From Plectonema cf. radiosum LEGE 06105 (GTDB taxonomy: Bacteria; Cyanobacteriota; Cyanobacteriia; Cyanobacteriales; Nostocaceae), in assembly GCF_015207665.1 (NCBI RefSeq), contig NZ_JADEWL010000034.1, positions 1-51,342 of the forward strand: DNA of 51,342 nt. Reading direction: 5' to 3'. Under the pieces are notes generated by a model that was not told where the DNA came from, ran no database searches, and saw only the letters and a list, made by a program, of their open reading frames with translations. A program made the translations under genes and the position numbers. Positions 42,497-45,071 of this stretch are shown here, piece by piece (within the stretch, counting starts at the first letter, position 1; every line of letters starts with the position of its first letter).

Positions 42497-42525
42497 CAAA
42501 AAAAAGCCTTGACTTCTAGCCAAGG
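42497..42525 (-). terminator. Intrinsic terminator of the Ro transcription unit
   Basis: On the minus strand CCTTGGC and GTCAAGG (7 bp, with one G-U) flank the loop TAGAA and are followed by CTTTTTTTT. It lies 24 bp beyond the second Y-like RNA and is the best terminator-shaped sequence near the locus. Confidence 0.88.
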
Positions 42526-42548: not shown

Positions 42549-42657
42549 GGCGGGTACGGGAATTGAACCCGTTCATCCCCAAATTGGTGGAGATTTAACC
42601 GATAATCCTAAGTCCATCGTCCCGATATGGGCAAGTTGCGAACCAGGAAACCCCGCC
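42549..42657 (-). ncRNA. Y-RNA-like RNA with tRNA-type acceptor and T arm (downstream of Ro)
   Basis: This 109-nt RNA closes with an acceptor-like stem (GGCGGG 42652-42657 with CCCGCC 42549-42554) and a perfect T arm (ACGGG-TTCAATT-CCCGT, 42556-42572). There is no D arm. After the acceptor, TCCTGGTTC pairs with GACTTAGGA (one mismatch) to form the base of a stem whose upper part has ACUUGCC (42630-42636) and GGACGAUG (42615-42622), capped by 7 nt. A second hairpin ATCTCCA/TGGGGAT (42575-42594) stands where a variable arm would be. ACUUG-CC and GG-ACGAUG resemble the Ro-binding helix of Y RNAs. No CCA is encoded. It follows the Ro gene by 62 nt and precedes the terminator. Confidence 0.72.
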
Positions 42658-42669
42658 GTGATTAATTTA

Positions 42670-42698
42670 GTAGAGACGTTGCACTGCAACGTCTTTAC
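42670..42698. repeat. Palindromic repeat between Ro gene and Y-like RNA
   Basis: GTAGAGACGTTGC and GCAACGTCTTTAC are inverted arms around ACT. It is nearly identical to the copy at 2723. Within the transcript it would form a strong hairpin that could separate the mRNA from the RNA by pausing or processing. Confidence 0.78.
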
Positions 42699-42719
42699 AA
42701 GGGTGAAACGCAATACACT

Positions 42720-44342
42720 TTACAATCCACCATTTGCCAACATTTGAATCAAACGCGGCGCACCGGGATCAAATCCGCCGATATCCCATGATAAGGGGTC
42801 TAATGGATCAATCAAGGTAATCTGATAAGGTGCAAGGGTGACGTATATCGCTTTAATATTAGGGTTGATTTTTTTGCGATATCGTGCAAGCGCTTGTGAC
42901 GGATGACTGCTACCAGCCCAGCTTTCGGAGTCAGTCCAAAAACAAATTACATCAGCTTTGAACTTGTTTTTAATCATCCAATTGTAAGCTACTGTTGCAT
43001 CGGTTCCACCGAAATTTTGATTACTAGCTTTACGAATCGCCGAACTAAAACTATCTTTGGCAGTAATATCCAAATCGCGAAAGTCTTCAGCAAAGCCGCG
43101 AATCATATAGTTTTTTTCAGCTTTTGCGGTGACAAGTGCCATTGTGGTGGCAATTTCACAGCAGGTAAGTCCTACCGAACTCACGGTGCTGCAAGACATG
43201 GAACCGGATACGTCAACGGCGTGCATGAACACTTTACCCGTAGGTTCAACCACATCAAAAGACAGTTCTACTGCTTTTTCTAAAATTCCTACTATGCGGC
43301 TAACTGGATTCCAAGTCTTCTTGCTGCGTCCTAATTTCCCTCCCGACTGATAAGTTTTGAGTGCTTTTAAAACATCAATGGGATGGATGTGTCCTTTTCT
43401 CAGACGTTCTTTACTGTTGAGAACTGCTGCAACGCGATCAATGTTTGCAGGTTCATCAGTTCGCAATACACCTAACTCAGTCAGCGAACCCAGGTTACGC
43501 AACATTGCACCGATTGGCATTTCGTTGAATAACAACTGCCAAGCTTGTTTATCCATTTTACCCACGGGGGCAGCCATTTCATGGGTTAAACGTCCTTGGA
43601 TAATCGCTTCATGGGTTTGATCTGGGTTGCGTTTCAACCATTCGTACCACCAAATTTGTGATAAAGCTTCAGTGGGAATATTACTGGGTAATTCCTCCCA
43701 ACCCTTGATTACCCAATGAAACAGTAATTCATGGTCGATAGTTGGTGGTTTAACGTGAAACAAGCGTAAAGCATCACGGTTAGTGAAATCATGACGTTGC
43801 TGATATTTCAACAATTGATATGCTAAACCCTTAGCATCGGAATTAGACAACCAAGTTTTACCAGCTTCCCGGACAATTTTACCAAAACCACGCAGCGATT
43901 TGGTATAACTCAACCATTCATAAAAATGACTACCAGTACGGACTACTTGCGGAAAAATTTCGGTAAAAGCTGCTTTCGCTTCTGGTGTTTTACCCATTGA
44001 GAGCAATACTAAAGCAAATATTGGCGCACTGTTATTAATGGCTCTTCCATCGCTAGCGTAGAGAATTTCTTCGGCTACACGAGCGGGATTCTCCGTAACA
44101 GCTTGTTGAACGGTTGAGACAAAATCCTCAGTTAATTCATTTTTTCCAGCATAATAAGTGCTTTTTGCGGTACCAATTAGCAAACAGCGTCGCAGCATTT
44201 GCCAGATACCAGCATCAAACATATAACCCCCACTACGCCCCGGAATCATTTCTGTTTCTCTTCCAGGAATGGGTTGATTTTGTGGTGTTTTATTATTTTG
44301 ATTATTTTGATTAATATTTTGAGTAAAAAATTTATAGTTCAT
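42720..44342 (-). CDS. rsr: Ro60/Rsr orthologue (TROVE plus vWA domain)
   Basis: This 540-aa RNA-binding protein has the length of human Ro60 (538 aa). After a Gln/Asn-rich start (1-22), helical TROVE repeats run from about 40 to 360 (VAEEILYASDGRAINNSAPI, YEWLSYTKSLRGFGKIVREA, NMPIGAMLRNL-type NEMPIGAMLRNLGSL). A vWA domain follows with MIDAS residues D377, S379 and S381 (DVSGSMS), the Thr of GGTDAT (447) and Asp in FWTDSES. Ro proteins bind Y RNAs and misfolded RNAs and, in bacteria, help RNA decay and stress survival. GGGAG lies 8 nt before the ATG. RtcB, a frequent partner, is not in the window. Two tRNA-like RNAs flank the gene. Confidence 0.94.
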   Translation of the reverse strand: MNYKFFTQNINQNNQNNKTPQNQPIPGRETEMIPGRSGGYMFDAGIWQMLRRCLLIGTAKSTYYAGKNELTEDFVSTVQQAVTENPARVAEEILYASDGRAINNSAPIFALVLLSMGKTPEAKAAFTEIFPQVVRTGSHFYEWLSYTKSLRGFGKIVREAGKTWLSNSDAKGLAYQLLKYQQRHDFTNRDALRLFHVKPPTIDHELLFHWVIKGWEELPSNIPTEALSQIWWYEWLKRNPDQTHEAIIQGRLTHEMAAPVGKMDKQAWQLLFNEMPIGAMLRNLGSLTELGVLRTDEPANIDRVAAVLNSKERLRKGHIHPIDVLKALKTYQSGGKLGRSKKTWNPVSRIVGILEKAVELSFDVVEPTGKVFMHAVDVSGSMSCSTVSSVGLTCCEIATTMALVTAKAEKNYMIRGFAEDFRDLDITAKDSFSSAIRKASNQNFGGTDATVAYNWMIKNKFKADVICFWTDSESWAGSSHPSQALARYRKKINPNIKAIYVTLAPYQITLIDPLDPLSWDIGGFDPGAPRLIQMLANGGL

Positions 44343-44379
44343 TGATTAAACTCCCAGCCTGGAAAGGCAAAATGGAAGG

Positions 44380-44502
44380 TGGCGAAGCAGGACTCGAACC
44401 TGCGACATCCCGCATTACAAGCGATAACCTTTATTCATCGTCCTTTTCAGGCAAGTTTTGAACAAAGACGTTTAGGCGCTCTACCAACTGAGCTACTCGC
44501 CA
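44380..44502 (-). ncRNA. Y-RNA-like RNA on a tRNA body (upstream of Ro)
   Basis: This 123-nt RNA has full tRNA outer parts: acceptor TGGCGAG/TTCGCCA (7 bp), U8-A9, D arm GCTC-AGTTGGTA-GAGC (44478-44493) and T arm GCAGG-TTCGAGT-CCTGC (44387-44403). In place of a normal anticodon arm are about 73 nt: a long stem CTTTGTTCA/TGAATAAAG (44467-44459 with 44437-44429; nine pairs, one G-U) whose top holds ACUUGCC and GGACGAUG around UGAAAA, then a small hairpin CGC-TTGTAAT-GCG (44411-44423). The same ACUUGCC/GGACGAUG pair occurs in the RNA at 42549. No CCA is encoded and U1-A72 is unlike a normal tRNA-Thr. It ends 37 nt before the Ro start codon. Confidence 0.75.
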
Positions 44503-45071
44503 CATCAGAATTGAACACGGATTAAAGGATTAAAGGATTACACGGATTTGTGGTGCTAAAAGCCGATAAACCTTCGTAAAAACAATTCAAAATTTTAATT
44601 TTTACTCAACATATTTCTGGTTTACTCCCAATTAATTTGTTTTAACAAGATTGAAAAATATCGTGCAACAATCAAACATTTTTATGGCATTTGATTGATT
44701 TACACTGTGTTTTTTGCTCTGTAACATTAATGTAGTATATGTACTATAGATTGTCAAGAGGTTTAGAAATTAATTTTCGTGGTGTTCGTATCTCTCGGTG
44801 GAGCAACTTATATATGTATTATTAATTACTTACTTTTCCAAGTTTAGTCTAAATGGCATGAGATTAAGTTTTTTTGCCAAATACCCTTCAAACTTGAGAA
44901 TACTGCTGAGCAAGGATTTTTTAGCTAAAAATTGGCGAATTTACGAGTATTAATAAAATCAAATTTTCCCAAATATTTTCCTGTAAATCGACAAACAATA
45001 CAAATTAGTGTCCCAATTTTTGCCAAGATGATATTATTTCCTAAAATAAATCACTTAGCAAATACACAGGC
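44503..45071. other. Intergenic region upstream of the Ro unit
   Basis: The 569 bp separate the leftward Ro unit from a rightward membrane-protein gene. They hold a promoter-like sequence on the minus strand (44729-44757), a GGATTAAA direct repeat with AATCCGTGTAATCC relatives (44519-44547), and AT-rich DNA. No protein gene is visible. Confidence 0.5.
44729..44757 (-). promoter_or_regulatory. Sigma-70-type promoter of the Ro unit (probable)
   Basis: On the minus strand TTGACA (44757-44752) is followed after 17 bp by TACATT (44734-44729), a consensus -35 with a four-of-six -10. Transcription would start near 44722, about 220 nt ahead of the first Y-like RNA, whose 5' end would need RNase P or other processing. 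Confidence 0.48.

Follow-up and report, generated by a model that had tools for sequence, protein, structure and literature searches.

Predicted Y RNAs in native tRNA order beside a cyanobacterial Ro gene, and their relation to YrlA by circular permutation

Introduction

What are the two tRNA-shaped RNAs that flank the Ro gene of Plectonema cf. radiosum LEGE 06105? The window analyzed here, 51,342 nucleotides in length, is part of a single contig (NZ_JADEWL010000034.1) in the 7.6-Mb genome of this cyanobacterium. On its minus strand, a Ro60/Rsr orthologue is flanked on both sides by such RNAs, RNA1 about 36–37 nt before the gene and RNA2 62 nt after it. An earlier note on this DNA proposed that they are Y RNAs built the other way round, with the termini in the tRNA acceptor and the Ro-binding helix closed by a loop. 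Its coordinates, its spacing of 37 and 62 nt, and the shared motifs ACUUGCC and GGACGAUG were all found as described. The length of 123 nt for RNA1 holds for a 7-bp acceptor and is refined to 125 nt with an 8-bp acceptor (44503–44379). The proposal itself is strengthened by the recurrence of these RNAs beside Ro genes, by covariation, and by a rotation test with the bacterial Y RNA YrlA. We consider it quite likely that both are Y RNAs whose parts follow the native tRNA order and which tether Ro to a tRNA-mimic body.

The Ro gene and its flanking RNAs

The main features of the locus are as follows.

42720–44342, minus strand: Ro60/Rsr orthologue of 540 amino acids, by homology in Pfam and PDB matches
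44379–44503, minus strand: RNA1, predicted tRNA-embedded Y RNA of 125 nt with an 8-bp acceptor (123 nt if 7-bp)
44496–44503 and 44386–44379, minus strand: RNA1 acceptor, 5′ strand GTGGCGAG and 3′ strand, respectively, from the sequence
44478–44493, minus strand: RNA1 D-arm GCTCAGTTGGTAGAGC, from the sequence; helix 2 of the 40-sequence alignment
44424–44474, minus strand: RNA1 Y-arm, inserted between tRNA positions 28 and 29 (CC-insert-CGC), with the conserved GGTTAT at its end
44436–44455, minus strand: predicted Ro-binding core of RNA1, CTTGCC-TGAAAA-GGACGATG, loop-closed, from the motif search
44409–44423, with the 5′ half CC at 44476–44475, minus strand: RNA1 anticodon-like hairpin CGC-TTGTAAT-GCGGG
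44387–44403, minus strand: RNA1 T-arm GCAGGTTCGAGTCCTGC, from the sequence; helix 8 of the 40-sequence alignment
42549–42657, minus strand: RNA2, predicted downstream tRNA-embedded Y RNA of 109 nt, without a D-arm and with a long variable arm
42615–42635, minus strand: predicted Ro-binding core of RNA2, CTTGCC-loop-GGACGATG, from the motif search

The Ro gene is the sole TROVE match in the whole genome. Its product matches vWA_Ro60 (E 7.3e-37) and TROVE (E 9.5e-15) in Pfam and has full-length homologues in the PDB, namely D. radiodurans Rsr (2nvo, E 2.3e-70) and Xenopus Ro (1yvp, E 2.6e-69). The Xenopus residues in contact with Y RNA, K170, R174, and H187, correspond in the alignment to K179, R183, and H196 of the window protein (numbering counted by hand on the alignment), and none of these three varies among the 31 aligned Ro proteins. 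The pattern ACTTGCCN{3,12}GGACGATG, which joins the two strands of the predicted core, occurs exactly twice in the 7.6-Mb genome, in RNA1 and in RNA2, and its reversed control does not occur there at all. ARAGORN called no tRNA in the window.

Structure and covariation

Ro matches were present in 47 of 195 genomes of the order. Fifty stretches were fetched around these matches, and a motif scan with a pairing test identified 111 RNAs in 37 of them, including the two in the window; one call (L080, score 11) overlaps another and is doubtful. Pairing of the acceptor and T-stem among the 111 is partly by construction because the RNAs were chosen by motif and pairing test. The arms follow in the order acceptor, D-arm, lower helix, core, GGUUAUCG, often an anticodon-like hairpin, T-arm, and acceptor, with the T-arm general and the D-arm usual. 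The lower helix has the consensus CCUU.UUC / GAA..AGG, and the core reads CUUGYC, a short loop, and GGnCGAnG, so that the conserved strands of the predicted Ro-binding helix of Y RNAs are present. This helix is closed by a loop, and the two ends of the molecule pair in the acceptor instead of forming the Ro helix. An eighth acceptor pair, G(-1):C73, is found in 61 of the 111 RNAs, and CCA is encoded in 35.

Covariation was assessed on a MAFFT alignment (A1) of 40 of the 47 "standard" RNAs, with the structure taken from one row (L060). In this alignment 97.4% of cells are paired compared to 86.4% in shuffles, double changes are found in 22 of 33 pairs compared to 16.0, and pairing falls to 50–52% when the partners are slid by one column. 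The acceptor helix shows double changes in 8 of 8 pairs, and a G-C pair of the core is replaced by A-U in 7 of the 40 relatives. A covariance model built from 40 native-order sequences (R1) detected RNA1, itself among the training sequences, in its own genome with 123.8 bits (E 4.1e-24). RNA2 scored 29.6 bits, which is weak taken alone; aligned with nine downstream relatives, it belongs to a conserved class of 10.

Association with Ro

All 111 RNAs lie on the strand of Ro, 99 upstream and 12 downstream of it, with up to 10 motif-called copies per stretch (L050) and at distances of up to 3.1 kb. In 13 of the 50 stretches the motif rule found no RNA, and R1 finds RNAs in some of those. The earlier note had proposed a covariance search near other Ro genes as a check. 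At the order level (E up to 1e-10), R1 had matches in all 44 of the genomes in which Ro is complete, nearly complete, or split, and in none of the 151 others, of which 3 have only Ro matches of 63–72 residues and 148 have no Ro. Training sequences came from 28 of the 44 genomes and not from the other 16. These RNAs are thus encoded with Ro, as expected of Y RNAs in the broad sense of small RNAs bound by Ro.

Similar results were obtained at the phylum level (386 genomes), where all 32 genomes with a Ro of at least 69% identity have an R1 match, each of at least 66 bits; 19 of the 32 were new, that is, unused in training and unseen at the order level. Among four genomes with a Ro of 34–37% identity, only G228 was matched (63.9 bits). 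The remaining 12 matched genomes scored 53.7–57.3 bits. In 11 of them the match covers 74 nt and looks to us like a plain tRNA, and in the twelfth it covers 118 nt. Because such presumed plain tRNAs reach 57.3 bits, the assignment of RNA2 and of other matches of 30–57 bits rests on motif and position. A plasmid search with RNA1 returned 20 records, none covering 80% of RNA1; the best 10 of the 20 match 22–26% of it.

Relation to YrlA and to animal Y RNAs

The earlier note had also suggested comparison with Rfam models. There was no match at gathering thresholds across the window, and the YrlA model (RF02553, cut-off 69 bits) reached at best 37.1 bits over 11 loci and 23.4 bits in the window. 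The consensus order of RF02553 is Ro strand, T-arm, closed acceptor, D-arm, and Ro strand. YrlA resembles the native-order RNAs in its location beside Ro, in the circular order of acceptor, D-arm, Ro helix, and T-arm, and in its CUUGnC and GGnCGAnG-like strands. However, YrlA has its termini in the Ro helix, a loop-closed acceptor, and the T-arm before the D-arm, whereas the native-order RNAs have their termini in the acceptor, a loop-closed Ro helix, and the order D-arm, Ro hairpin, and T-arm. YrlA is therefore the same molecule, circularly permuted. A published structure comparison describes the bacterial Y RNA structure 6CU1 as superposing on tRNA with a circular permutation (PMC11472068). 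The earlier note had spoken of a permutation of the usual Y RNA plan; the permuted partner is specifically YrlA.

Several searches bear on this relation. The two best matches of the YrlA model (L006, 37.1 bits; L007, 37.0 bits) span the junction of adjacent native-order copies, and the best R1 matches in Rhizobium (42.5 and 37.5 bits) lie across the junction of neighboring tandem YrlA copies. On YrlA and its phage relatives, the unrotated R1 found mainly junctions or plain tRNAs. R2, a covariance model of the rotated cyanobacterial RNAs, matched YrlA in both Rhizobium plasmids tested, which indicates the tRNA-like module joined to a Ro helix that characterizes YrlA. It scored 56.4 and 49.9 bits on the first YrlA-like copy; on the copy that Rfam confirms as YrlA (98.4 and 94.9 bits), it scored 39.9 and 36.8 bits. 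R2 also gave 68.5 bits on an RNA of Gordonia phage Forza that falls below the Rfam YrlA cut-off; read by eye, its acceptor is closed by UUCG, and it keeps GGTTATCG and the split anticodon hairpin. In L147, the RNA next to a divergent Ro gene scored 58.5 bits and has its acceptor closed by GCAA. Topology was assigned, partly by eye, from the spacing of the arms and the position of the tight loop. Both forms are found in a single tRNA array after Ro in L144.

L144, 2799–2919: native-order RNA, R1 63.9 bits
L144, 4910–5030: permuted RNA, R2 39.8 bits

In E. coli genomes, no match to the YrlA consensus was found at the search sensitivity used. In animal Y RNAs (RF00019), the termini lie in the Ro helix, and there is no tRNA body. 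They share with the native-order RNAs a GGnCCGAAG-like strand, an opposite strand with CUUG, U-G and U-A pairs, and a bulged nucleotide; the native-order RNAs differ in their loop-closed Ro helix and tRNA body. The literature searched, as far as its accessible parts go, describes no native-order Y RNA and no cyanobacterial Y RNA; Chen 2014, Wang 2018, and Sim and Wolin 2018 may describe one.

The anticodon hairpin and alternative explanations

In 39 of the 111 RNAs, nucleotides 27–28 and 29–31 flank the Y-arm and jointly pair with nucleotides 39–43 around a loop of exactly 7 nt, the 3′ part of this split hairpin beginning directly after GGUUAU. All five stem pairs form in 33 of the 39. The rule used to find them ignored the letters of the loop, where all 39 have U33 and 31 have A37. 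The anticodon stem-loop of these 39 RNAs is preserved whole, which means that their Ro hairpin sits within an otherwise complete tRNA. The split stem-loop of RNA1, with 5 of 5 Watson-Crick pairs, a 7-nt loop, and U33, was not described in the earlier note. The other 72 RNAs, including RNA2, fail the rule. Compared to tRNA, the native-order RNAs are thus alike in their acceptor and T arms and usually the D arm, and unlike in an anticodon arm that is interrupted or replaced, an anticodon that is not conserved, and an acceptor that is often 8 bp long.

This architecture raises the question of whether the RNAs are tRNA genes with a new kind of intron, in which the hairpin is spliced from the anticodon stem with the aid of Ro. 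When the insert between positions 28 and 29 was removed in silico, ARAGORN called a tRNA in 39 of 39 RNAs, including RNA1, compared to 2 of the 111 intact RNAs (84 of 111 with its intron option); several intact RNAs exceed the gathering score of RF00005, and the invariant U33 and the encoded CCA would also suit a tRNA. However, 72 RNAs fail the split-stem rule, the genome already has ordinary tRNA-Tyr(GTA) and tRNA-Thr(TGT) (from 30 of its 57 tRNA matches), and the window matched no Rfam intron family up to an E of 1. Over 11 loci, the sole intron-type matches lie in L022 (910–1009, plus strand), below cut-offs and away from its RNAs. Furthermore, the anticodon is shared in only 1 of 13 pairs of RNAs with bodies at least 90% identical. 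Among 26 pairs of the same type that are at least 88% identical, the per-site difference is 0.54 for the anticodon triplet and 0.45–0.52 for flanking DNA; the corresponding values are 0.27 for the Y cap loop, 0.20 for the variable loop, 0.05 for the anticodon stem, and 8% for the acceptor. The shape of the loop is thus kept while the identity of the anticodon drifts or diversifies. A normal decoding tRNA is disfavored by these drifting anticodons and by the G(-1):C73 pair, and we regard the intron explanation as very unlikely.

The same variability of the triplets might be expected of decaying tRNA pseudogenes that lie beside Ro by chance. Such decay is contradicted by the strong double changes and the co-occurrence with Ro, and fits poorly with the invariant U33 and the 5% and 8% differences in the anticodon stem and acceptor; it is extremely unlikely. 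A third explanation, that the RNAs are not free but act in cis, as tRNA-like parts of the Ro mRNA with a processing or regulatory role, draws on the predominance of upstream copies on Ro's strand and on the promoter- and terminator-like sites that bracket RNA1, Ro, and RNA2, although such sites are no more common than in shuffles. The 12 downstream copies, the occurrence of up to 10 motif-called copies per stretch and of copies up to 3.1 kb away, and the best matches of G162 and G107 on contigs without Ro do not fit a cis element, and the closest relative, YrlA, is described as a free RNA (PMC8394870). We regard this explanation, too, as very unlikely.

The proposal that RNA1 and RNA2 are native-order Y RNAs has to be weighed against several observations. 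Covariation holds for the 40 aligned RNAs but is slight in the class of RNA2, in which 2 of 23 pairs covary and 132 of 500 shuffles score as high. The single-sequence fold of RNA1 is mildly better than that of shuffles (z -2.37, 6 of 200 equally good), drops to z -0.87 when the first three bases are missing, and in its minimum-energy form contains the acceptor, D-arm, and Y-arm and lacks the T-arm and anticodon hairpin; RNA2 is likewise mild (z -1.99, 8 of 200). Much of the R1 score reflects general tRNA-ness, as the presumed plain tRNAs of 74 nt and up to 57.3 bits illustrate. G210, G226, and G284 carry a divergent Ro without an R1 match at E 1e-8, and R2 gave nothing in G210 and G226 either. 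In addition to G162 and G107, one match in G177 lies on a contig without Ro (all three are drafts). Finally, R2 also scores across tandem junctions of native-order copies (61.3 bits in L270 and 58.2 in L341), so its score alone does not fix topology.

Proposed mechanism and significance

As native-order Y RNAs, these molecules start and end in a tRNA acceptor, carry a T-arm and usually a D-arm, and present the predicted Ro-binding helix as a short-looped hairpin, which, where the anticodon stem is kept, leaves the 5′ strand of that stem between positions 28 and 29. Ro would hold this hairpin by its capped form. Enzymes of tRNA processing probably cut the tRNA-like body from a transcript that also encodes Ro, and this body may be the effector-facing module, as reported for YrlA. 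The known effector of bacterial Ro, reached via the Y RNA, is PNPase (PMC8394870, PMC7790460).

These RNAs supply the unpermuted counterpart of YrlA, which makes it possible to see in the tRNA-like part of a bacterial Y RNA a true tRNA fold that bears a Ro-binding arm beside the anticodon. The origin of Y RNAs from tRNAs by circular permutation becomes testable by phylogeny, and the ends of a Y RNA of this kind should come from tRNA-processing enzymes. These results may bear on the relationship between Y RNAs and tRNAs. The RNAs are also present in Picosynechococcus sp. PCC 7002, a model cyanobacterium in which their function could be tested; its plasmid pAQ7 has three R1 matches (103.5, 62.4, and 44.8 bits) upstream of the Ro gene SYNPCC7002_RS15900.

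A more far-reaching proposal combines two ideas, that the RNAs form a diversifying set of tRNA decoys tethered to Ro and that the native order may be ancestral to YrlA. Displayed on a complete tRNA body, an anticodon loop with U33 and ever-changing triplets would absorb or report anticodon nucleases and other tRNA-targeting attackers, and Ro on the adjacent hairpin would pass damaged molecules to repair or decay. YrlA could have arisen from the native order by circular permutation via tandem arrays in which both registers were transcribed. Taken together, the two ideas are speculative, and we consider them unlikely to hold jointly.

Other sequence elements at the locus

Three further elements were noted around the Ro gene.

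44351–44370, minus strand: Ro-leader hairpin TTGCC-TTTCCA-GGCTGGGAG, which overlaps the Shine-Dalgarno sequence and resembles the Y-arm core
44729–44757, minus strand: promoter-like site TTGACA-17-TACATT, some 225 nt before RNA1, by consensus match only
42507–42525, minus strand: terminator-like hairpin and T-run, about 24 nt past RNA2, by consensus match only

A UUGCC-loop-GGCYG-like hairpin that runs into the Shine-Dalgarno sequence is found in 34 of 46 Ro leaders compared to 26 of 430 other ORFs, by a rule written post hoc after the leaders had been viewed; the count omits the four divergent Ro leaders, and five stretches yielded no start codon. The likeness of the hairpin to the Y core points to possible binding of Ro to its own mRNA. 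The hairpin is a candidate autoregulatory site, and at the ribosome-binding site it may allow Ro to repress its own translation. Promoter-like sites number 8 in the window compared to 6.1 expected in shuffles, and terminator-like sites number 2 compared to 2.3.

Distribution and evolution

Carriers of the motif were also sought by scanning viral and genome contigs. Of 38 viral stretches, only L183 was confirmed by R1 (87.6 bits), and its Ro is 32% identical. The scan of genome contigs yielded at least 117 stretches, at least 71 of which hold Ro within the fetched stretch; among the matches listed, the named carriers are mostly cyanobacteria. Since these stretches were found by motif scan, the sample is biased toward this motif. 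R1 was applied to 28 of them (the listed ones other than ordinary cyanobacteria, and L253), confirming L194, L253, L270, and L271, with a single match of 28.9 bits in L248; the other 23 had no R1 match at E 0.001. Native-order matches were thus found in Chloroflexota metagenome-assembled genomes (L271, 99.5 and 69.0 bits; L194, 70.6 and 59.0 bits) and in Gloeobacterales (L253, 81.9 bits, with no Ro in the fetched stretch). In Lihuaxuella thermophila (L270), a member of the Bacillota, the scores of 58.5, 55.4, and 53.9 bits are in or near the range of plain tRNAs; these RNAs carry the motif and GGTTATCG and adjoin a Ro fragment 64% identical to the window Ro, which suggests horizontal transfer.

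In an unrooted tree of 21 Ro proteins, the distinction between native and permuted order requires 2 changes of topology, compared to about 5.7 in shuffles. The topology labels came from R1 and R2 matches and from reading by eye, with R2 scores of only 28–35 bits for L344–L347; L092 is a long branch, and the partial Ro sequences of L270 and L194 were left out.

Ro genes lie beside or within tRNA arrays in L144, L147, and L194 and in the phages L343 and L345; in Gordonia phage Forza, a tRNA, a tmRNA, and further tRNAs come after Ro. The divergent Ro of L147 (5461–7011, 34% identical) comes from a genome that belongs to the same family as that of the window. It groups with the Ro of Streptomyces phage Comrade (99/100 support), and its neighborhood contains tRNAs, HSP20, and an endonuclease VII gene; this Ro is possibly of phage origin. 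In the Plectonema genome, contig C213 (40125–49977) is a second place rich in tRNA matches, seemingly a long tRNA array. A repressed tRNA operon of 26 genes is reported for Anabaena PCC 7120 (PMC10272220).

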